64,000 bases of DNA from positions 13,094 to 77,093 of the forward strand of contig NZ_KB898673.1 in the NCBI RefSeq assembly GCF_000377765.1, given 5' to 3'. Under the pieces are notes generated by a model. The model had not been told where the DNA came from and made no database searches. It saw nothing but the letters and a program-made list of their open reading frames with translations. Shown here one piece after another: positions 26,861-39,416 of this stretch. The position numbers and the translations under genes are program-made. Positions within the stretch are counted from its first letter, which is position 1, and every line of letters starts with the position of its first letter. Source of the DNA: Gracilibacillus lacisalsi DSM 19029 (lineage in GTDB: Bacteria; Bacillota; Bacilli; Bacillales; Amphibacillaceae).

Positions 26861-27095
26861 AGGTTTTATACAATGTAAAATAAAAGACATAATGTCCGTA
26901 TGTTAAAAAAATGTAGATCGTTTTTTAGCGTAGGCCACTCACTTTCACATGGCTACTAGGTCAATCACCCGATCTTCTTACACTTATTGACAAGTCACCC
27001 TTGCACATCGGTAAAAAATATACTATAGTAAAAATACGTTCGTATTGAATTTTTTTCCACCTAAGAAAATCAAAGTAAATAAATGATGAAAATAC

Positions 27096-27160
27096 GCCTC
27101 AAGTCTTACATCAAAATATATCTATAGCCCATTATCCAAACCGATAAGACAAACTATCAT
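27096..27160 (+). promoter_or_regulatory. LiaR-type regulated promoter shared with the lia operon
   Basis: From 27096 to 27178 the sequence matches 32014-32096, upstream of liaI, at 64 of 83 positions without a gap. Both have a -10 box tatcat (27155-27160) and a poor -35 box ttatcc (27132-27137) at 17 bases, preceded by gtctta and atatatc words. A weak -35 box with a conserved block upstream is what a promoter activated by a response regulator looks like. Confidence 0.65.
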
Positions 27161-27185
27161 ATAGAGATGGAAGGAGGGGGCGAAG

Positions 27186-27755
27186 GTGAAAAAAGTTTAT
27201 CTTCTTTTCACAGATACTGGAACGCTTTTATCGCGTATGATTAATCTGTGTACAAAATCAACTTTAAATCATGCATCGATTGCTTTTGATTCTTCTTTAA
27301 CAGAAGTATATAGTTTCGGAAGAAAGCATCCATATAATCCTTGGATTGGCGGGTTTGTTAGAGAAAATTTACGCACTCCATTTTTTAGTCATTCGAAATG
27401 TGCAATTTATCAATTATCGATATCAGATGATACATATTATGTATTAAAGCAACGGATAGAAAAAATGGAAGCTGAAACAGATCAATACCGCTATAATTTG
27501 TTAGGTCTATTTGGGGTCCTCTTAAACTTGGAATGGCAACGCGAACACGCTTATTTCTGTTCGGAATTTGTCGTTACCATCTTGAAAGAGGCGGGGATTT
27601 ACGTTGATGAGAAACCGGCATGTCTGGTGAAACCGCAGGACTTAAAAGAGTGGAAAGCGTTAGAATTAATTTATCACGGTGATTTACCCGTTTATTTAGA
27701 GCATCATGGTGGTTATCAAGTGAAAATACCATTATGGAAAAGAATTTATAGTTAA
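27186..27755 (+). CDS. Permuted NlpC/P60 (YiiX-like) protein, predicted LiaR target
   Basis: A 189-residue protein without signal peptide. It shows the two key elements of circularly permuted papain-like NlpC/P60 proteins: His29 in LNHASIAFD near the N-terminus and Cys125 in YFCSEFVVTILKEAG. Family members are thought to hydrolyse amide or ester bonds in lipids or cell wall; the substrate here is unknown. The GTG start follows ggaggggg. The promoter is a near copy of that of liaI, so I predict induction by envelope stress through LiaR. Stand-alone gene with its own terminator. Confidence 0.75.
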   Translation: MKKVYLLFTDTGTLLSRMINLCTKSTLNHASIAFDSSLTEVYSFGRKHPYNPWIGGFVRENLRTPFFSHSKCAIYQLSISDDTYYVLKQRIEKMEAETDQYRYNLLGLFGVLLNLEWQREHAYFCSEFVVTILKEAGIYVDEKPACLVKPQDLKEWKALELIYHGDLPVYLEHHGGYQVKIPLWKRIYS

Positions 27756-27780
27756 CGCAATTATTTATATATTAATTTTT

Positions 27781-27811
27781 CAAGAGTCTTTAACAAGGCT
27801 CTTGTTTTTTT
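27781..27811 (+). terminator. Rho-independent terminator
   Basis: Arms caagagtctt and aaggctcttg around taac, followed by T7. Confidence 0.88.
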
Positions 27812-27900
27812 GGTGAAAGCTCGCTATTGAATATTCCAGTCACAACATTTGCCCAGTTTTTCATAGAATATCTTGAGTAAATGTTTAGGAGGAAAAGAAT

Positions 27901-28494
27901 ATGTACCCATATTACCAGTACGGCTATCCGCAATATCAAATCTATCCTTATGATTTCCGGCAAAATATTATTAATGGGCAGGCGACTTGGACAGAAGGCG
28001 GAAATATAACCCAATGTAATATTCCTTGGTCTTATAATCAATACATGACAGTAGCGGTCAGCACCAATTCCCCTTATCAATGTGGTCAAACGATTAAAGT
28101 AAGAAACCCGCAGAATGCTAGAGAAGTTATTGTGATGGTCGTGGATACAGTACCGAACGCACCGGAAACAAATTTAAACTTGCATCGCAGAGCATTTGAG
28201 GCATTAGGTGTAAATCCATCTGTAGGAGTGTTGTCCATTCAATTTGAACCCTCTCCAGAATTGGAGCAGGTTAAATGGGGGAAGTATTTGTTAGAAGTTA
28301 CCCAGACCGCTTATCCGAACTATAATGTGACAGATTATAGTTTTGTTGAAAAAACACAACCGTCGCAAAATCAAGTGAGAGAAGTCTACGATTATTCTTT
28401 ACAAAACACGCAAGAACGGATAACTGTCAGAGGAACAGTAGTTTATAACCCGACAACAGAACGCGTTATATCATTTGATATTAGAGAACTATAG
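27901..28494 (+). CDS. Double-psi beta-barrel (RlpA-like) protein with DUF3889-like C-terminus
   Basis: A 197-residue protein opening with a Tyr-rich segment (MYPYYQYGYPQYQIYPYDF) and no signal peptide. Residues about 38-118 look like a double-psi beta-barrel: CNIPWSYNQYMTVAVSTN, CGQTIKVRNPQNAREVIVMV, VDTVPNAPETNLNLHRRAFE and GVLSIQFEP. The last 70 residues, with YLLEVTQTAYPNYNVTDYSF and RGTVVYNPTTERVISFDI, resemble DUF3889. Tyr-rich starts are common in spore coat proteins, so a spore or surface role is possible but not shown. ATG preceded by aggaggaaaag. Confidence 0.65.
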   Translation: MYPYYQYGYPQYQIYPYDFRQNIINGQATWTEGGNITQCNIPWSYNQYMTVAVSTNSPYQCGQTIKVRNPQNAREVIVMVVDTVPNAPETNLNLHRRAFEALGVNPSVGVLSIQFEPSPELEQVKWGKYLLEVTQTAYPNYNVTDYSFVEKTQPSQNQVREVYDYSLQNTQERITVRGTVVYNPTTERVISFDIREL

Positions 28495-28500
28495 AATGAG

Positions 28501-28534
28501 AGCACTCGTTTTCCGAATGGCGGGTGCTTTTTTT
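28501..28534 (+). terminator. Rho-independent terminator
   Basis: Arms agcactcg and cgggtgct (one G-T pair) around a 12-base loop, followed by T7. Confidence 0.85.
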
Positions 28535-28540
28535 AGTTGG

Positions 28541-28612
28541 TAAAGAAAGTATAAACGCAGATGTCTAGCCCCGACCTCCAAAAACTAGGAGATTTCCCGA
28601 GAGCGCCCTACT
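28541..28612. repeat. Intergenic repeat, family B (short copy)
   Basis: Junction motif aaagaaagtataaacgcaga followed by tgtctagccccgacctccaa and aaactaggagatttc. It lies just after a terminator, like the other copies. Confidence 0.75.
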
Positions 28613-28722
28613 ATTTAGACAGAATAACATGTCTAATCATATAAGCATATATCCAATCATTTAGAATATATATGTAATTACCATAGAGGTTTGAGCAGTA
28701 CTAGGGTATCAAACACATTTTT

Positions 28723-28736
28723 GTTAAGCGGTTACA
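28723..28736 (+). promoter_or_regulatory. Candidate cre-like operator upstream of TRAP system 1
   Basis: gttaagcggttaca matches the catabolite-responsive element pattern at 12 of 14 positions, with a perfect right half. It is near-palindromic (tgttaa-gcg-gttaca), as expected for a LacI-family site. It lies 70 bases before the TRAP receptor gene. I see no sharp -35/-10 pair nearby. Confidence 0.35.
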
Positions 28737-28805
28737 TGCAAAAGTGAACACTTTGGTTACTAAACAAATTAATGTGTTACATATTTATTTTAGGGGGTAA
28801 TGCAC

Positions 28806-29882
28806 ATGAACAAAAAATGGTTAATGGTAGTGGCAATTTTCTTCAGTTTAGTGTTAGTGCTGGCCGCATGTGGAGGTTCATCCGAGTCTGGAAATGATGC
28901 TGAAGATAACCAAGCGGACACAGAAACTCCAGTAACAGAAGAAAGCAATGATTCTGAAACTGATAGTGAAGAATCATCTGGAGAGACTATTACTTATCGT
29001 CTAGCAGATAATCAACCTGAAGGTTATCCAACGGTAGTAGGTGTTGAAGAATTCGCTAGATTAGTAGAAGAAAAAACAAATGGGCGATATAAAATTGAAG
29101 TTTATGCAGGTGGGCAATTGGGGGATGAAGTAAGTGCCATCGAACAAGTTCAGTTAGGGTCCATTGATTTTGCCCGTGTAAACGCATCTCCATTAACGCA
29201 ATTTAATGAACAAATAGGTGTATTATCTATGCCTTATCTTTTTGAAAGTGAAGAACAGAAGTGGGAGAAGTTAAATGGAGAAATAGGAAAAGAACTTTTG
29301 GAAACATTTGAAGGCTCTGGTTTAGTTGGATTAGCTTTTTATGATTCCGGGGAAAGAGCATTTTATAATACAGAACAGCCTGTAACATCTCCAGATGATT
29401 TAGCTGGAATGAAAATTCGTGTCCAACAATCTGATTTAGCGATTTCAGTTGTCGAAGCACTTGGAGCTTCCGCTACACCAATGGCATACGAAGAAGTATA
29501 TTCCGGTCTTCAAACAGGAGTTATTGATGGAGCAGAAAATAACTTTCCAAGTTACTATACAGTTAACCACTATGAGGTAGCACCATATTACACATTACCA
29601 GGTTATACGGGGACACCCGAGGTAGTAATTGCCTCTCAACAAGTTTGGGATACCTTAAGTGACGAAGATAAACAAGCATTTAGTGAAGCGGCACTTGAAT
29701 CTGTTGAAGCGCAGCGTCAAGCTTGGGCAGAACTTACAGAAGAATCACGAACTGCGGTGGAAGAAGCTGGGTCTGAGATAACAGAAGTAGAAGATATTTC
29801 AGAATGGAGAGATGCTGTTCAACCTGTATATGATGAATTTGGTGACCAATACGGAGAATGGATCGACAAACTATCAGATTAG
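28806..29882 (+). CDS. TRAP transporter solute-binding lipoprotein (DctP family), system 1
   Basis: Receptor of a tripartite ATP-independent periplasmic transporter, which takes up organic or sugar acids using an ion gradient. I use the ATG at 28806, eight bases after aggggg; the ATG at 28800 is too close. The 358-residue protein has a lipoprotein signal ending in LAAC (Cys22), a Ser/Glu-rich linker, then the DctP fold with DDLAGMKIRVQQSDLAISVV and VYSGLQTGVIDGAENNF, where the conserved Arg that grips the carboxylate is in KIRVQ. The two permease genes follow. Substrate not identifiable. Confidence 0.92.
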   Translation: MNKKWLMVVAIFFSLVLVLAACGGSSESGNDAEDNQADTETPVTEESNDSETDSEESSGETITYRLADNQPEGYPTVVGVEEFARLVEEKTNGRYKIEVYAGGQLGDEVSAIEQVQLGSIDFARVNASPLTQFNEQIGVLSMPYLFESEEQKWEKLNGEIGKELLETFEGSGLVGLAFYDSGERAFYNTEQPVTSPDDLAGMKIRVQQSDLAISVVEALGASATPMAYEEVYSGLQTGVIDGAENNFPSYYTVNHYEVAPYYTLPGYTGTPEVVIASQQVWDTLSDEDKQAFSEAALESVEAQRQAWAELTEESRTAVEEAGSEITEVEDISEWRDAVQPVYDEFGDQYGEWIDKLSD

Positions 29883-29942
29883 TCAAATAGAATAAGAAAG
29901 GGAGAACGTCTCGTCCCTTTCTTTATTCTGGGGGGAAATAGT

Positions 29943-30473
29943 ATGGGTATTTTAAAAAAAATCAAACTACTGATTGATAAGCTATTTTTATTTACGGCAC
30001 TAACTATGCTTTCAGTGATGGTAATTGTTATTGTGATACAAGTTTTCTCTCGACAGTTATTTAGTTATACTCCATCATGGTCAGAAGAGCTTTCCAGGGT
30101 GTTACTGATCTGGATTAGCTTTTTAGGAGTGGCATACGGTGTGAAGGAAAAGCTGCATATTGCGCTCGGGCTTTTTGTTCATATGCTGCCAAAGCCGGTA
30201 CAGCATATATTGGACCTGTTTTCCAAGTTACTACTAATAGGATTTGGAATCATGATGGTTTACTACGGTTATCAATTTACCGTGTTAATGGGTGGCTCGA
30301 CAATGCCAGGCTTAGGATTGAAGTCCAGCTATTTATATGCATGTATTCCGATTGGGGGAGTTTTTCTGATATTGTATGGAGTTGAACTATTATTTCAACG
30401 TGGATTGTACAAGAACTATACTGAAGAGATAAGTGAGGATGAGGATTATGGAAATAACCATACTGCTAGGTAG
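29943..30473 (+). CDS. TRAP transporter small permease (DctQ family), system 1
   Basis: A 176-residue membrane protein with four segments. DctQ-type signature SWSEELSRVLLIWISFLGVA followed by GVKEKLHIALG. It forms the membrane unit with the large permease, whose start lies 26 bases inside this gene's 3' end. It starts after a gggggaaa site, 60 bases downstream of the receptor gene. Confidence 0.9.
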   Translation: MGILKKIKLLIDKLFLFTALTMLSVMVIVIVIQVFSRQLFSYTPSWSEELSRVLLIWISFLGVAYGVKEKLHIALGLFVHMLPKPVQHILDLFSKLLLIGFGIMMVYYGYQFTVLMGGSTMPGLGLKSSYLYACIPIGGVFLILYGVELLFQRGLYKNYTEEISEDEDYGNNHTAR

Positions 30474-31728
30474 CTTTGTCCTATTATTATTACTTCGTGT
30501 ACCAATTGCATTAACCTTAATCATATCCTCTATATTAACAGGTTTATATATGGATATCGATCCAGCGGCTATATTACAACGTATGGTAAGTGGGATGAAT
30601 TCGTTTTCGTTATTAGCTATTCCATTCTTTATTTTAGCTGGTGAAATAATGAATGAGGGTGGCATTTCGAGGAGGCTGATTAACTTTGCCAATGTCATTA
30701 TAGGTAAAATCCGCGGAGGGTTAGCTATGGTGAATGTGCTGGCTAGTACTTTTTTTGGTGGTATTTCTGGATCAGCTCTAGCGGATACATCTTCACTAGG
30801 TTCTGTACTTATTCCCATGATGAAGAAAAACGGATATGATTCGGATTACGCGGTATCGGTAACGATTTCAAGTGCTGCGCAAGGCGTTTTAATTCCTCCC
30901 AGCCATAATATGATTATTTATTCAACAGCTGCCGGCGGTGTTTCGGTAGGAGCCTTGTTTATGGGAGGGTTAGGACCTGGGCTATTGTTAGGATTGGCAT
31001 TTATGATATTGACCTATATGATTGCTGTAAAACGAAATTATCCAGCAGGTGATATTATTAAGAAAAAAGATGTTCCGAAGATTCTTTGGGAAGGCATATT
31101 AGGTTTATTTACAGTGGTTATCATTATGGGTGGAATTCTTAGTGGTTTCTTTACAGCTACAGAATCGGCGGCAATAGGTGCACTTTATGCCTTTATCATC
31201 ACCTTTTTTATCTATAGAGAAATAACATTGAAGCATATGAAAGTAATCCTGCATAAAACATTTAAAACGTTAGCGATGGTTATGTTCCTAATTGCAACAT
31301 CTTCTTCCTTTGGATGGCTGTTAGCGTTATTGCAAGTACCAAAAATGGTATCGGACACATTGATCGGTATTTCACCGAATGATTATATAACCATATTATT
31401 TATTGTCCTCATTCTATTGGCATTAGGGATGGTAATGGATATGGCACCACTTATTTTAATCGCTACACCTATTTTGTTGCCAGTTGCGATGAATGTTGGA
31501 ATTGATCCGGTTCACTTTGGTGTATTACTTATTTTGTGTTTAGCAGTAGGGCTTGTGACACCTCCAGTTGGCTCAGTGTTATTTGTTGGTTCTGCGATAG
31601 GGAGGATCTCGGTTGAAAGAGCATCACTTGGAATGCTTCCATTCTACGCAGCCATGATTGTAATATTATTAGTAGTAGCCTACTTCCCACAAGTATCCCT
31701 ATTCCTGCCAACACTGTTTGGCTATTAG
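30448..31728 (+). CDS. TRAP transporter large permease (DctM family), system 1
   Basis: A 426-residue membrane protein with about 12 segments, the ion-coupled transport subunit. Typical DctM stretches are AIPFFILAGEIMNEGGISRR, FFGGISGSALADTSSLGSVL, VLIPPSHNMIIYS and GLVTPPVGSVLFVG. I use the ATG at 30448, nine bases after gagg; a GTG at 30433 is also in frame. The overlap with dctQ points to coupled translation. A terminator follows. Confidence 0.92.
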   Translation: MEITILLGSFVLLLLLRVPIALTLIISSILTGLYMDIDPAAILQRMVSGMNSFSLLAIPFFILAGEIMNEGGISRRLINFANVIIGKIRGGLAMVNVLASTFFGGISGSALADTSSLGSVLIPMMKKNGYDSDYAVSVTISSAAQGVLIPPSHNMIIYSTAAGGVSVGALFMGGLGPGLLLGLAFMILTYMIAVKRNYPAGDIIKKKDVPKILWEGILGLFTVVIIMGGILSGFFTATESAAIGALYAFIITFFIYREITLKHMKVILHKTFKTLAMVMFLIATSSSFGWLLALLQVPKMVSDTLIGISPNDYITILFIVLILLALGMVMDMAPLILIATPILLPVAMNVGIDPVHFGVLLILCLAVGLVTPPVGSVLFVGSAIGRISVERASLGMLPFYAAMIVILLVVAYFPQVSLFLPTLFGY

Positions 31729-31750
31729 CCGTATGATCTATATAAGAGTA

Positions 31751-31787
31751 AACACACGCATTCCGTTTTCACGAAATGCGTGTGTTC
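31751..31787 (+). terminator. Rho-independent terminator of TRAP operon 1
   Basis: Arms aacacacgcatt and aatgcgtgtgtt around a loop of about 12 bases. The T-run is short (ttcctaattt). Confidence 0.8.
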
Positions 31788-31872
31788 CTAATTTAACGAA
31801 ATAGTCCCCGGCAATGGAAAAAATGTGCAAAAAAGTGGGTATAGATTATCTCCCGGTAAATCCGGGCTGAGT

Positions 31873-31917
31873 GCGGACATTTACCAAATTGAACCAAATG
31901 ACGAATTAAATGTCCGC
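31873..31917. repeat. Short copy of the gcggacat palindromic element
   Basis: One gcggacat (31873) and one atgtccgc (31910) with aaat/attt sequence between them, a single-unit version of the 181-bp elements at 16358 and 37261. The rest of the gap to the lia promoter shows no gene. Confidence 0.75.
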
Positions 31918-32013
31918 TCAAGCAACCTTTCTCCAAAATCGAATCTGAACGACTGACTGAGTTGGGGAGGAACTTGATTTGAACTGTGACACGCATGGTC
32001 CTAGTAAAAATAA

Positions 32014-32078
32014 GCCTCGGGTCTTAGTCTAAAATATATCCGCAGTCCGTTACCCAAATCGATGAGACAAGCTATCAT
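32014..32078 (+). promoter_or_regulatory. lia operon promoter with presumed LiaR site
   Basis: -10 box tatcat (32073-32078) and poor -35 box ttaccc (32050-32055), spacing 17. Upstream lie gtcttagtctaaa and atatatcc. The block 32014-32096 is shared with 27096-27178. In Bacillus subtilis, liaI expression depends on phosphorylated LiaR bound upstream of its promoter; by position this block should hold that site. Confidence 0.7.
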
Positions 32079-32103
32079 TAAGTTATGGAAGGAGGGAACG
32101 CAA

Positions 32104-32412
32104 TTGAAAACATTTCTACTTATCAGTTTAGCGGTGATCGCCTCAATCATTTTATTAGCAAATCTAGGTCCGATGATCATGCTATTGATTAGTGTGGTAC
32201 TTGCTTACTATGGTGTGAAGCAATTCATCTTAGCGAATACTACCGGAAAAAAAGTCGGCTGGGGAATAGTCATCTTAATCGGTGTTTCCATGTCACTGTC
32301 GAACATACCGGCACTAATCGGTGTAGTAGCTTTAGTCGTATTGTATTACAGTTATAAAAAATATCAGGAAGAAAAAGAACGTCAAGATTACTTAGAGTGG
32401 GACAAGCTTTAA
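32104..32412 (+). CDS. liaI: LiaI-like small membrane protein
   Basis: A 102-residue protein, almost entirely hydrophobic, with three to four membrane segments and a charged C-terminal tail (KKYQEEKERQDYLEWDKL). I take the TTG at 32104, eight bases after aaggaggg. The longer frame from an ATG at 32062 would start inside the predicted promoter. In Bacillus, LiaI anchors the phage-shock protein LiaH to the membrane under envelope stress. The gene lies 23 bases before the PspA-like gene, so the pair matches liaIH. Confidence 0.82.
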   Translation: MKTFLLISLAVIASIILLANLGPMIMLLISVVLAYYGVKQFILANTTGKKVGWGIVILIGVSMSLSNIPALIGVVALVVLYYSYKKYQEEKERQDYLEWDKL

Positions 32413-32435: not shown

Positions 32436-33065
32436 ATGTCAAACTTATTTACACGTATTAAAGATTCGGTGATGGCAGATTTACACGAGGCTATGGATCG
32501 AAAAGAGGAGAAAAATCCAATCGCACACGTTAACCAGTACATTCGTGAGTGTGAGCAGGAAGTAAAGAAGATCAAACGGTTGGTGGAAAAACAATATGAA
32601 ATAAAACAGGATATTGCAAAAGAATTAAACCATGCCAAAATGATGGTTGAAAAGCGTAAACGCCAAGTCCAATTAGCAGAAGAAATGCAAGAAACGGAAT
32701 TGAAGACGGAGGCACAAACAGAATTAGAGCAATTCGAAGCACGCGTTGCTCATTTAAATGAAATGTCCGATAAATCAGTCAAAGATCTAGAAACCCTTGA
32801 GACAAAATATGTCCAAATGAAACAGAAATTAAAGGATCTATATGTTAAGCGACTGGAATTACGCAGCAGAGAAAATGTTGCTCGTACGAAACAAGGGATG
32901 AACAAAGTGTTGGAAACCGAATTAGTTTCTAAGAGTGCTTCGAAATTTGCAGAGCTTGAGAGCTACATTGAACGCATTGAACAGCGTGTTCAATCAGATT
33001 ATCGCCTGCATACTTTAGATGCACGCTTTCAAGAATTAGAAAAAAAAGCTACAACAAACAACTAA
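32436..33065 (+). CDS. liaH: Phage-shock protein A family protein, LiaH
   Basis: A 209-residue PspA/IM30 protein, nearly all helical and predicted coiled coil. It begins SNLFTRIKDSVMADLHEAMD and has NPIAHVNQYIRECEQEVKKI, typical of the family. These proteins form large rings or rods that protect the membrane when lipid II cycling or the bilayer is damaged. I use the ATG at 32436, which has aaggaggaa upstream; the ORF is open back to 32397, overlapping liaI. A terminator separates it from liaF. Confidence 0.92.
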   Translation: MSNLFTRIKDSVMADLHEAMDRKEEKNPIAHVNQYIRECEQEVKKIKRLVEKQYEIKQDIAKELNHAKMMVEKRKRQVQLAEEMQETELKTEAQTELEQFEARVAHLNEMSDKSVKDLETLETKYVQMKQKLKDLYVKRLELRSRENVARTKQGMNKVLETELVSKSASKFAELESYIERIEQRVQSDYRLHTLDARFQELEKKATTNN

Positions 33066-33206: not shown

Positions 33207-33926
33207 ATGTCAATCAAACCAAATAATGATCTATTAAAGACTTTATTGATCATTGGCTGTGTATTTTTACTTGTAGAATTCATTTTTATGGATGCTGGCC
33301 TCCTTTTTCTTATTGCATTAGGGGCAGTCGGCATGTACTTCGGAAGGCGTTCCTTTCATACTACAACAGGTAAAACGCTCTTCTGGGGTGGCGCATTTAT
33401 TGTTTTTATTGCTGTTATTAATACATTTGTAATACGCTTTTTTATTTTTGTTATTATACTTTATTTCGCTTGGCATTGGTATCAACAGAAACAAAAAGAA
33501 AAGCAGCCGTTGCCTAATCATATTGATATAACAGAAGAAACACTATATGAAGACCGTGTTATTCAAAATAAATGGTTTGGCAAATACCATACAACTCAAA
33601 ATGGTTTCTCCTGGCAAGACCTTAATATTCAATCAGCAGTTGGTGATGTTGTCGTTGATTTAAATGATACGATGCTGCCTAAGGAAGAGTCAGTAATGGT
33701 AATTCGCCATCTCGCTGGAAAAATTGTTATTATCGTACCGTATGATATAGAAGTTACAATCGATCATGCGGTTGTATTTGGTGATATTGAAGCATTTGAT
33801 CATGAGGAGAAAAACGCCTTTAATCGCCATATTCAACTGCAAACAAAAGGGTACCATGAATCACCTCAAAGGGTAAAAATCTTTACCCAAATGATTGCCG
33901 GAAAGCTCGAGGTGAGAAGAGGATGA
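33207..33926 (+). CDS. liaF: LiaF, inhibitor of the LiaRS two-component system
   Basis: A 239-residue protein with four membrane segments in the first 95 residues and a soluble C-terminal beta-strand domain (LiaF/DUF2154 type; for example NIQSAVGDVVVDLNDTMLPK and FGDIEAFDHEEKNAFNRH). LiaF keeps the LiaS kinase quiet when there is no envelope damage. The gene overlaps liaS by four bases. Start after aaaggaggtct. Confidence 0.92.
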   Translation: MSIKPNNDLLKTLLIIGCVFLLVEFIFMDAGLLFLIALGAVGMYFGRRSFHTTTGKTLFWGGAFIVFIAVINTFVIRFFIFVIILYFAWHWYQQKQKEKQPLPNHIDITEETLYEDRVIQNKWFGKYHTTQNGFSWQDLNIQSAVGDVVVDLNDTMLPKEESVMVIRHLAGKIVIIVPYDIEVTIDHAVVFGDIEAFDHEEKNAFNRHIQLQTKGYHESPQRVKIFTQMIAGKLEVRRG

Positions 33927-34960
33927 AAATGTATACTAGAATGATCGCTACCGGGTCTCTGTTTGCTTTATTCCTTCTCATCATTTTAAGTGTATTCTAC
34001 TATTTAGCATTTCCAATTGAAGATTGGCAATTATTATGGACGACAAAAGTTTTAGAGATTCCATTTGTCGTCATGCTACCGACTATTACAATCCTTTTCG
34101 GCTCAATTATCGGTATTATTGTCGCTGCAATTTGGCAACGTCGGATTCAATTTTTAGAAAATAGTTTAGCAAGATTGCTAAAAAATCAAACCTTTTCTGA
34201 TCCTGTATCGTATGAAGAAATGAATCATGTACTTAGCCGGTTAAAAGAAGTCCAGCAATACATTCAGGATCAAACGAAACGAACCCAGAAACTAATCGAT
34301 GAAAGAGCAAGTGCACAGGAAGAGACGATTAATCAAGTTATTTCCGAGGAGCGTAATCGTTTAGCAAGAGAGTTACATGATTCTGTCAGTCAAGAGCTTT
34401 TCGCCGCATCTATGCTTGTTTCAGCTGTGATCGCTTCAAATCAGGAGCAAAAAGAAACAAAGACCAAACAATTACACCAAATTGAAGCAATGATTCAACA
34501 GGCACAATTAGAAATGCGGGCACTGCTGTTACATTTACGCCCGGTCTTATTAAAAGATAAATCATTAAAAGAAGGAATGGAGCAACTACTAGAAGAGCTT
34601 CATGCCAAAGTCCCAATGGATATTTCCTGGCGTTTGGAAGAAATCAAAGTAAACAAAGGAATTGAAGATCAGCTGTTCCGAATCTTACAAGAAGCGATTT
34701 CCAATGCGTTAAGACATGCGAAAGCTTCGACGATTGACGTATTATTAATCGAACGTGATGATTTTTTAATACTAAGAATAGTTGATGACGGTATTGGATT
34801 TAATGTACAGGAAAAAAAAGAAAGTTCTTATGGCCTCACTAACATGTATGAACGAGCAGCAGAAGTGGGTGCCAGGCTCAACATCGTAAGTCTGGCAGAT
34901 GAGGGGACCAAAATAGAAGTGCGTGTTCCATTAATCAGTGAAGAAGGTGAGAAAGAATGA
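33923..34960 (+). CDS. liaS: LiaS sensor histidine kinase
   Basis: A 345-residue kinase of the NarX/HisKA_3 class with two N-terminal membrane segments joined by a very short outer loop, so it senses within the membrane. A linker follows, then the phospho-acceptor His152 in RNRLARELHDSVSQELFAAS, and a C-terminal ATPase with NALRHAK and DDGIGFN. The ATG at 33923 overlaps liaF; a second ATG at 33929 has better ribosome-site spacing and may be the real start. Its partner LiaR follows with a four-base overlap. Confidence 0.93.
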   Translation: MKMYTRMIATGSLFALFLLIILSVFYYLAFPIEDWQLLWTTKVLEIPFVVMLPTITILFGSIIGIIVAAIWQRRIQFLENSLARLLKNQTFSDPVSYEEMNHVLSRLKEVQQYIQDQTKRTQKLIDERASAQEETINQVISEERNRLARELHDSVSQELFAASMLVSAVIASNQEQKETKTKQLHQIEAMIQQAQLEMRALLLHLRPVLLKDKSLKEGMEQLLEELHAKVPMDISWRLEEIKVNKGIEDQLFRILQEAISNALRHAKASTIDVLLIERDDFLILRIVDDGIGFNVQEKKESSYGLTNMYERAAEVGARLNIVSLADEGTKIEVRVPLISEEGEKE

Positions 34961-35595
34961 TAAGCGTATTATTTGTTGATGACCATGAAATGGTGCGAAT
35001 CGGTGTGAGTGCGTATTTGATGACACAAGATGATATCGATGTGATTGCAGAGGCGGATAATGGTCAAAAAGCAGTAGAATTAGCCCTAGAACATAAACCA
35101 GATGTAATTTTAATGGACTTAGTCATGGATGGGATGGATGGCATCGAAGCAACACGAAGAATTATCGCTAAATGGCCGGAAGCAAAGATATTAATTGTTA
35201 CGAGTTTTATCGACGACGATAAAGTCTATCCTGCTTTAGAAGCTGGTGCGACGAGTTATTTATTAAAGACTTCCAAGGCAGATGTCATTGCTAAAGCTAT
35301 TCGTGATACCTATGCTGGCGAATCAGTTCTTGAAAAAGAAGTGACAGCTAAAATGATGGCGAAATTCAGTAATCAAAAGTCGAAAAGCTTACATGACAGC
35401 TTAACTAAAAGAGAGCTAGAAATCTTATTATTGATCGCCCAAGGCAAGACTAACCAGGAAATTGCGGATGACCTTTTTATTGCGCTCAAAACCACAAAAG
35501 TCCACGTCAGCAATATTTTAAGCAAGCTTGAAGTACAAGATCGTACACAGGCAGCGGTCTATGCCTACCAAAACGGATTAATTGAAAATGAATAG
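34957..35595 (+). CDS. liaR: LiaR response regulator (NarL/FixJ family)
   Basis: A 212-residue regulator. The receiver domain has DDHEMVRIG at the start, phospho-acceptor Asp54 in DVILMDLVMDGMDG and Lys in YLLKTSKAD. The C-terminal LuxR-type helix-turn-helix is LTKRELEILLLIAQGKTNQE and IALKTTKVHVSNIL. It should bind the shared promoter block upstream of liaI and of the NlpC/P60-like gene at 27186. Confidence 0.94.
   Translation: MISVLFVDDHEMVRIGVSAYLMTQDDIDVIAEADNGQKAVELALEHKPDVILMDLVMDGMDGIEATRRIIAKWPEAKILIVTSFIDDDKVYPALEAGATSYLLKTSKADVIAKAIRDTYAGESVLEKEVTAKMMAKFSNQKSKSLHDSLTKRELEILLLIAQGKTNQEIADDLFIALKTTKVHVSNILSKLEVQDRTQAAVYAYQNGLIENE

Positions 35596-37733: not shown

Positions 37734-39416
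<1,683 letters not shown>

Follow-up and report, generated by a model that had tools for sequence, protein, structure and literature searches.

The window analysed here, 64,000 nucleotides of Gracilibacillus lacisalsi DSM 19029 (contig NZ_KB898673.1, positions 13,094 to 77,093), contains a gene for a YiiX-like protein of permuted NlpC/P60 fold which lies upstream of the liaIH-liaFSR operon and is preceded by a block resembling the liaI promoter. The question raised by this locus is whether the gene is controlled by LiaR, the response regulator encoded in the operon, and what its product might do in envelope stress, where the role of LiaIH itself is still debated. The sequence comparisons described below indicate that the gene starting at 27186 is in all probability a member of the LiaR regulon. 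The coordinates of the features are collected in Table 1.

The original prediction was based on an ungapped match of 83 bases, 64 of them identical, between 27096-27178 and 32014-32096, with a common TATCAT -10 box, an equally poor -35 box, a spacing of 17 bases and the ribosome site. The match was confirmed with these coordinates and all the elements were found; only the extent of the block was amended, as the likeness begins a few bases before 27096 and 32014 (AAATA ahead of GCCTC). The top score of 200 base-shuffled intergenic pairs was 43 identical bases. When 27060-27190 was used as a query against all 44 contigs of the 4.4-Mb genome, the search returned, at an expectation value (E) of 0.001 or less, the query itself and the block before liaI (C12:45100-45189, 78 % over 90 nt, E 4.6e-14) and nothing else. 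The spacers between the -35 and -10 boxes, 17 bases long in both blocks, are identical at 14 of 17 bases. This identity, together with the closer match to the liaI blocks of the block-bearing genomes themselves (see below), makes convergence of the two window blocks unlikely. Duplication of the coding regions was ruled out, since a permuted NlpC/P60 fold and an lmo0954-type membrane protein are unrelated in family and in fold. The second block had been placed ahead of liaIH-liaFSR, and genes for an lmo0954/LiaI-type protein, a PspA-family LiaH-like protein, LiaF, a kinase and a regulator were indeed identified there. The start of liaI was assigned to the TTG at 32104, inside a listed open reading frame (ORF) opening at 32062, because of the position of the ribosome site.

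The primary LiaR footprint at the liaI promoter of B. subtilis spans -76 to -52, and the motif is T(X)4C(X)4G(X)4A (PMC7191749). That paper prints a sequence with one base more than the motif permits, and the motif was used here. It is present in both window blocks, at about -74 to -59 if transcription is assumed to start 7 bases past TATCAT, and this distance agrees with the B. subtilis footprint. The earlier claim of shared control and not gene duplication was upheld, and the published LiaR motif stands in the block where the footprint would place it. LiaR and LiaFS are encoded in the same genome (33207-35595), and the solved chains nearest to the window LiaR are named VraR (5hev, E 9.7e-86, residues 1-209).

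A sequence-only model, R1, was constructed from 29 aligned liaI sites upstream of liaH in relatives; one of the 30 loci (L051) gave no site and was left out. Since R1 was built from liaI sites only, its matches upstream of YiiX-like genes are not circular. The G. lacisalsi genome contains two strong R1 sites, the one before liaI, itself part of the model, and the one before the YiiX-like gene; the next scored 17.4 bits, followed by at least 8 weaker matches. At E <= 0.1 and with stricter filters, R1 matched at least 142 of the 159 family genomes (46 genera). The 150 sites listed for this set preceded liaIH (122 sites), YiiX-like genes (11, of which 2 were about 800 bases off behind another ORF), other lia genes (4), RND-transporter loci (7) and other genes (3: two alpha/beta hydrolases and one AI-2E-type transporter, by Pfam), with 3 unclear. 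The 4 other lia sites comprised three liaFSR operons without liaIH (one called by alignment to LiaF and two by eye) and one liaI without liaH (by eye). A block scattered ahead of many unrelated genes, which according to the original prediction would have spoken against it, was not seen among the matches listed in the own-genome scan and the more strictly filtered family scan. At the order level 216 of 397 genomes had an R1 site at E <= 0.001, counted irrespective of gene context.

This distribution also bears on the identity of the regulator. R1 covers more than the footprinted motif, which leaves some room for a regulator other than LiaR binding the shared block; such a case is nevertheless most improbable, as the motif and its distance equal those of the B. 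subtilis LiaR footprint, the great majority of the sites listed precede liaIH, and the adjoining response regulator is VraR-like over its whole length.

Two further kinds of loci appeared in the scans. The third match in the G. lacisalsi genome (L261, G000 C6:191032-191064, E 0.02) is a weaker LiaR-type box before AcrB-family RND genes, and RND-type boxes were found in relatives at L246, L249, L253, L255, L256, L260 and L243. Six of these seven are AcrB-family RND loci by Pfam; at the seventh a HlyD-type gene comes after a regulator-like one, and no RND gene was seen. An RND transporter is a probable second LiaR target. At L247 and L251, in two genera, LiaR-type boxes stand ahead of an alpha/beta hydrolase gene.

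As had been proposed, the regions ahead of YiiX-like genes in related genomes were searched for the block. Of the genomes compared, only four, all of Gracilibacillus, have the block itself, and the boxes in other genera are separate and patchy in their occurrence. Of 157 family YiiX-like genes drawn from among the matches listed, 25 had a sense-strand R1 site upstream (E <= 1). These were the window-type genes of 4 genomes; 7 genes with a site within about 120 bases (G035, G102, G089, G087, G098, a further copy in G005, and G084); 5 with a weaker site (12-15 bits) no more than about 210 bases away (G065, G034, G121, G138, G123); 6 with an intervening ORF or remnant (G109, G117, G105, G120, G118, G110); and 3 with a site 364-476 bases off (G033, G168, G167). 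In 100 YiiX-upstream regions all 19 R1 sites at E <= 1 were on the sense strand, and so were all 36 in 80 named YiiX loci (1.09 Mb). At 14 of the named loci no more than 250 bases separated the site from the YiiX start: five of six Neobacillus, Bacillus sp. EB106-08-02-XG196, both Heyndrickxia sporothermodurans, Cytobacillus citreus (one of four Cytobacillus), Metabacillus bambusae (one of two Metabacillus), Bacillus sp. T33-2, Fredinandcohnia quinoae, and Amphibacillus marinus and G. orientalis, the last two being genomes already in the family set. The Paenibacillus loci among the 80 gave zero R1 sites. The LiaR motif fits all 14 near sites, and at L335 and L324 the site is the perfect palindrome TAAGACTTAAGTCTTA.

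In at least 32 genomes a YiiX-like gene is located upstream of the lia box, on the same strand and within about 5.6 kb; the opposite-strand arrangement was absent among the sites and genes listed. YiiX-like genes thus recur in several genera as putative LiaR-box targets and as lia neighbours, and the apparent link is wider than first claimed, yet patchy.

At L179, L188 and L192 (G109, G117, G120) a LiaR-type box is followed by an ORF of about 160-180 residues and then by a YiiX-like gene, possibly a two-gene LiaR operon. A PspA-like identity of the intervening ORF in G109 and G117 was considered and withdrawn, as the L179 copy has no Pfam PspA match and reaches 22.0 bits with DUF6076 against a cut-off of 23.5. 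The G. lacisalsi genome encodes a second, divergent YiiX-like gene (L363, G000:C9:107966-108475, 42 % identity), with no R1 site within 1 kb upstream (L122).

Within Gracilibacillus the block precedes the YiiX-like gene in G000 (the genome of the window), G009, G002 and G016, and is absent in eight compared genomes (G013, G012, G001, G015, G011, G010, G005, G014), which have a different ribosome site and keep an older promoter, TTGCRC-17-TATAGT or a close form of it. G003 has no box before the gene. Among the four block-bearing genomes, G009 is the one in which the older promoter cannot be recognised, while the other three still show it; in the window, promoter-like patterns in its region numbered 6 against a shuffle mean of 5.0, which is no excess. 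The four YiiX blocks cluster as one group (0.989, about 110 columns), which favours one copying event. They match the liaI blocks of the same four genomes at 69-76 of 95 bases and those of four other Gracilibacillus at 64-71 of 95, a gap too modest to settle the exact source copy. On a tree of 80 YiiX-like proteins, chosen and not random (32 with a box, 44 without, 4 uncounted) and made by a quick method with many weak forks, the box is gained or lost at least 11 times, and a weakly supported group (75) of 17 genes has the box in 12.

The block might also be a neutral leftover of duplication, with the older promoter driving the gene and LiaR having no real effect. The proximity of the liaI promoter, just 5 kb away, the restriction of the block to four compared genomes and the traces of the older promoter in three of them are compatible with this explanation. 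It is improbable all the same, since the motif, the -35 and -10 boxes and their spacing are kept in all four genomes amid gappy flanks, the ribosome site of the gene too derives from the block, and LiaR-type boxes precede YiiX-like genes in other genera.

Several points weigh against control of the YiiX-like gene by LiaR. The LiaR motif has four fixed bases only and is weak by itself, so the weight rests on its position and on R1, with E-values that the tool itself describes as rough. Most family YiiX-like genes have no box, and those counted with one include the three distant sites and the six behind an ORF or remnant. An R1 box precedes the gene in 5 of the 32 lia-adjacent cases (G000, G002, G016, G065, G138), and R1 did not report the boxes that a simple matrix placed before the gene in G036 and G032 (scores of 12.8 and 10.7 against a background maximum of 0.8). 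The YiiX block group joins nearest the liaI block of G011 (0.856) and not any liaI block of the four genomes that carry it; the block tree therefore fixes neither the source copy nor its date. G011 and G015 are without the block, though gene trees put both near or among the four with unfirm support, and a later loss of the block is possible on this placement. Taking these points into account, regulation of the gene by a LiaR-type promoter is well supported by the sequence data, and its control is very probably exerted by LiaR.

The product had been described as a permuted NlpC/P60 protein with His29 and Cys125. An AlphaFold2 model built with 49 sequences had a predicted local distance difference test (pLDDT) score of 86.2 and a predicted template modelling (pTM) score of 0.83. 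The sole clear Foldseek match of the model was 3kw0 (best E 5.1e-4). VIA-align, applied to the Foldseek list, gave YiiX 2if6 a Z of 13.2 (143 residues, root-mean-square deviation (rmsd) 3.0) and the B. cereus enzyme 3kw0 a Z of 12.9 (151 residues, rmsd 3.1), the next entries being far lower at about 5 (PPPDE/DeSI; 3ebq, 2wp7). His29 and Cys125, a putative catalytic pair with His before Cys in the chain, are invariant in all 49 sequences, as are Tyr42 and Tyr103. The fold and both residues were thereby upheld, and it was the Pfam C92 cut-off that was missed: Peptidase_C92 (PF05708) scored 16.4 bits, under the curated cut-off of 27. Of the 49 relatives, 33 match PF05708 at E <= 1 (best 0.00089). 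It also speaks against the assignment that the protein was not among the matches listed in a PF05708 search of its own genome. For these two reasons it is named YiiX-like by fold and not as a C92 member. Among the control genomes, B. subtilis holds a C92-family protein. The likeness to YaeF/YiiX (C92), YiiX 2if6 and 3kw0 concerns the predicted fold, with His near the N-terminus and Cys near the C-terminus; unlike YaeF/YiiX, the window protein, at 15-18 % identity and below the Pfam cut-off, is tied to the Lia system.

As to the substrate, the pocket of YiiX holds a fatty acid and cutting of fatty-acid amides has been proposed (PMC3142127), C92 enzymes have been termed lipid amidases (PMC10318531), and the toxin Tox-Act1 has phospholipase activity and a permuted NlpC/P60 core with His/Cys (PMC12994826). 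Unlike the window protein, Tox-Act1 is a secreted antibacterial effector, and the likeness is one of described fold, not of homology comparison. By analogy with such relatives a lipid is the best guess for the substrate, with roughly even chances. It is also conceivable, if rather unlikely, that the regulation is real and the enzyme acts on peptidoglycan or protein, since canonical NlpC/P60 enzymes are wall peptidases and the permuted-fold PPPDE/DeSI structures found at lower Z act on proteins (PMC10318531). The nearest folds, however, are those of YiiX, whose structure contains a fatty acid, and of the B. cereus enzyme (PMC3142127), and no signal peptide is evident by eye, so that the wall is probably out of reach, which counts against peptidoglycan.

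Table 1. Features of the YiiX-like gene and the lia operon in the window
Feature	Position	Strand	Remarks
Older sigma-A-type promoter of YiiX-like gene, TTGCAC-17-TATAGT	27001..27029	+	consensus match only
Copied liaI-type promoter block (LiaR box, -35, -10, ribosome site)	27090..27178	+	64/83 identical; R1 39.8 bits, E 1.8e-9 genome-wide
LiaR motif TACGCCTCAAGTCTTA	27093..27108	+	fits T(X)4C(X)4G(X)4A (PMC7191749)
-35 TTATCC, 17-base spacer, -10 TATCAT	27132..27160	+	-35 at 27132-27137, -10 at 27155-27160
Ribosome site GGAAGGAGG	27169..27177	+	within copied block
YiiX-like permuted NlpC/P60-fold protein	27186..27755	+	189 aa; His29, Cys125
Terminator-like hairpin after YiiX-like gene	27781..27804	+	pattern match only
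liaI promoter block	32008..32096	+	R1 40.5 bits; among the 29 sites of the model
liaI LiaR motif TAAGCCTCGGGTCTTA	32011..32026	+	
liaI weak -35 TTACCC	32050-32055	+	
liaI -10 TATCAT	32073-32078	+	
liaI ribosome site GGAAGGAGG	32087-32095	+	
liaI, lmo0954-family membrane protein	32104..32412	+	NF052277 121.3 bits, cut-off 40
liaH, PspA/IM30 family	32436..33065	+	PF04012 above cut-off; best NCBIfam NF045984 LiaH below its cut-off, 84.9 vs 380
liaF	33207..33926	+	PF09922, NF040535 above cut-off
liaS, histidine kinase	33923..34960	+	PF07730, PF02518
liaR, response regulator, presumed activator of both blocks	34957..35595	+	PF00072, PF00196

Other observations concern the neighbourhood and the liaH gene of other genomes. 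Positions 27901-28494 encode a protein of the DUF3889 family that weakly matches a double-psi beta-barrel, and its gene sits between the YiiX-like gene and TRAP-type-transporter-like genes (by eye). On the minus strand, 37734-39404 is an O-acetylhomoserine sulfhydrylase-like ORF (by eye), unusually long at 556 residues, with a C-terminal extension. In ten genomes of genus g15 (G030, G155-G163) a TAA lies inside the liaH match; the gene may be split, or the TAA may come from the alignment.

The following course of events is proposed. In the lineage of the four Gracilibacillus genomes a copy of about 90 bases of a liaI promoter would have landed between the older promoter of the YiiX-like gene and its start codon. 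We infer binding and induction by LiaR: envelope damage would be sensed through LiaF and LiaS, and phosphorylated LiaR on the box at about -74 to -59 would activate transcription at the poor -35/-10 pair; a basal level of expression may still come from the older promoter. The product would be a cytoplasmic cysteine enzyme of permuted NlpC/P60 fold. To judge from YiiX, the B. cereus enzyme, LRAT-type enzymes and Tox-Act1, its most likely reaction is the cleavage or transfer of an acyl group on a membrane lipid or lipo-amino acid. It would act at the damaged membrane, beside LiaH, presumably to the benefit of the cell.

The arrangement resembles the B. subtilis LiaR regulon in the LiaR motif at footprint distance and in the order liaI, PspA-family liaH, liaF, liaS, liaR, and differs from it in a probable extra target with its own promoter copy, encoding a permuted NlpC/P60-fold protein. 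Targets of LiaR in B. subtilis are said to have been reported by Jordan (2006) and Wolf (2010). The LiaR box of S. mutans and the lactococcal CesR box are an inverted repeat with AGNCT-type half-sites, TCAGHCTnnAGDCTGA (PMC4447274), which the Neobacillus palindrome resembles; the targets differ, and S. mutans binding needs a 25-bp motif with an A-rich stretch. A PspA-type protein is also joined with an NlpC/P60-superfamily enzyme in PspA_IM30-NlpC/P60 fusions, for which the authors predict phosphatidylcholine modification (PMC11237479); here, in contrast, the genes are separate under one presumed regulator. No report of this link between LiaR and a YiiX-like gene was found in the literature, in a search which reached few subscription journals.

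More tentatively, and with somewhat less than even probability, a lipid-acting permuted NlpC/P60 enzyme may be a standing effector arm of the Lia response beside LiaIH in many Bacillales, with one subfamily carrying an old LiaR box, another lying next to lia, and the four Gracilibacillus regaining the box through a copied liaI promoter; the enzyme would remodel or clear damaged inner-face lipids where LiaH assembles. A co-regulated enzyme with the fold of YiiX, which binds a fatty acid (PMC3142127), would give the Lia response a testable chemical activity and LiaH would gain a candidate partner. The copied promoter would be a clear example from nature of how promoter duplication can add a gene to a regulon. 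Together with the similar boxes before YiiX-like genes in some related bacteria, it would point to an overlooked part of the cell-envelope alarm.

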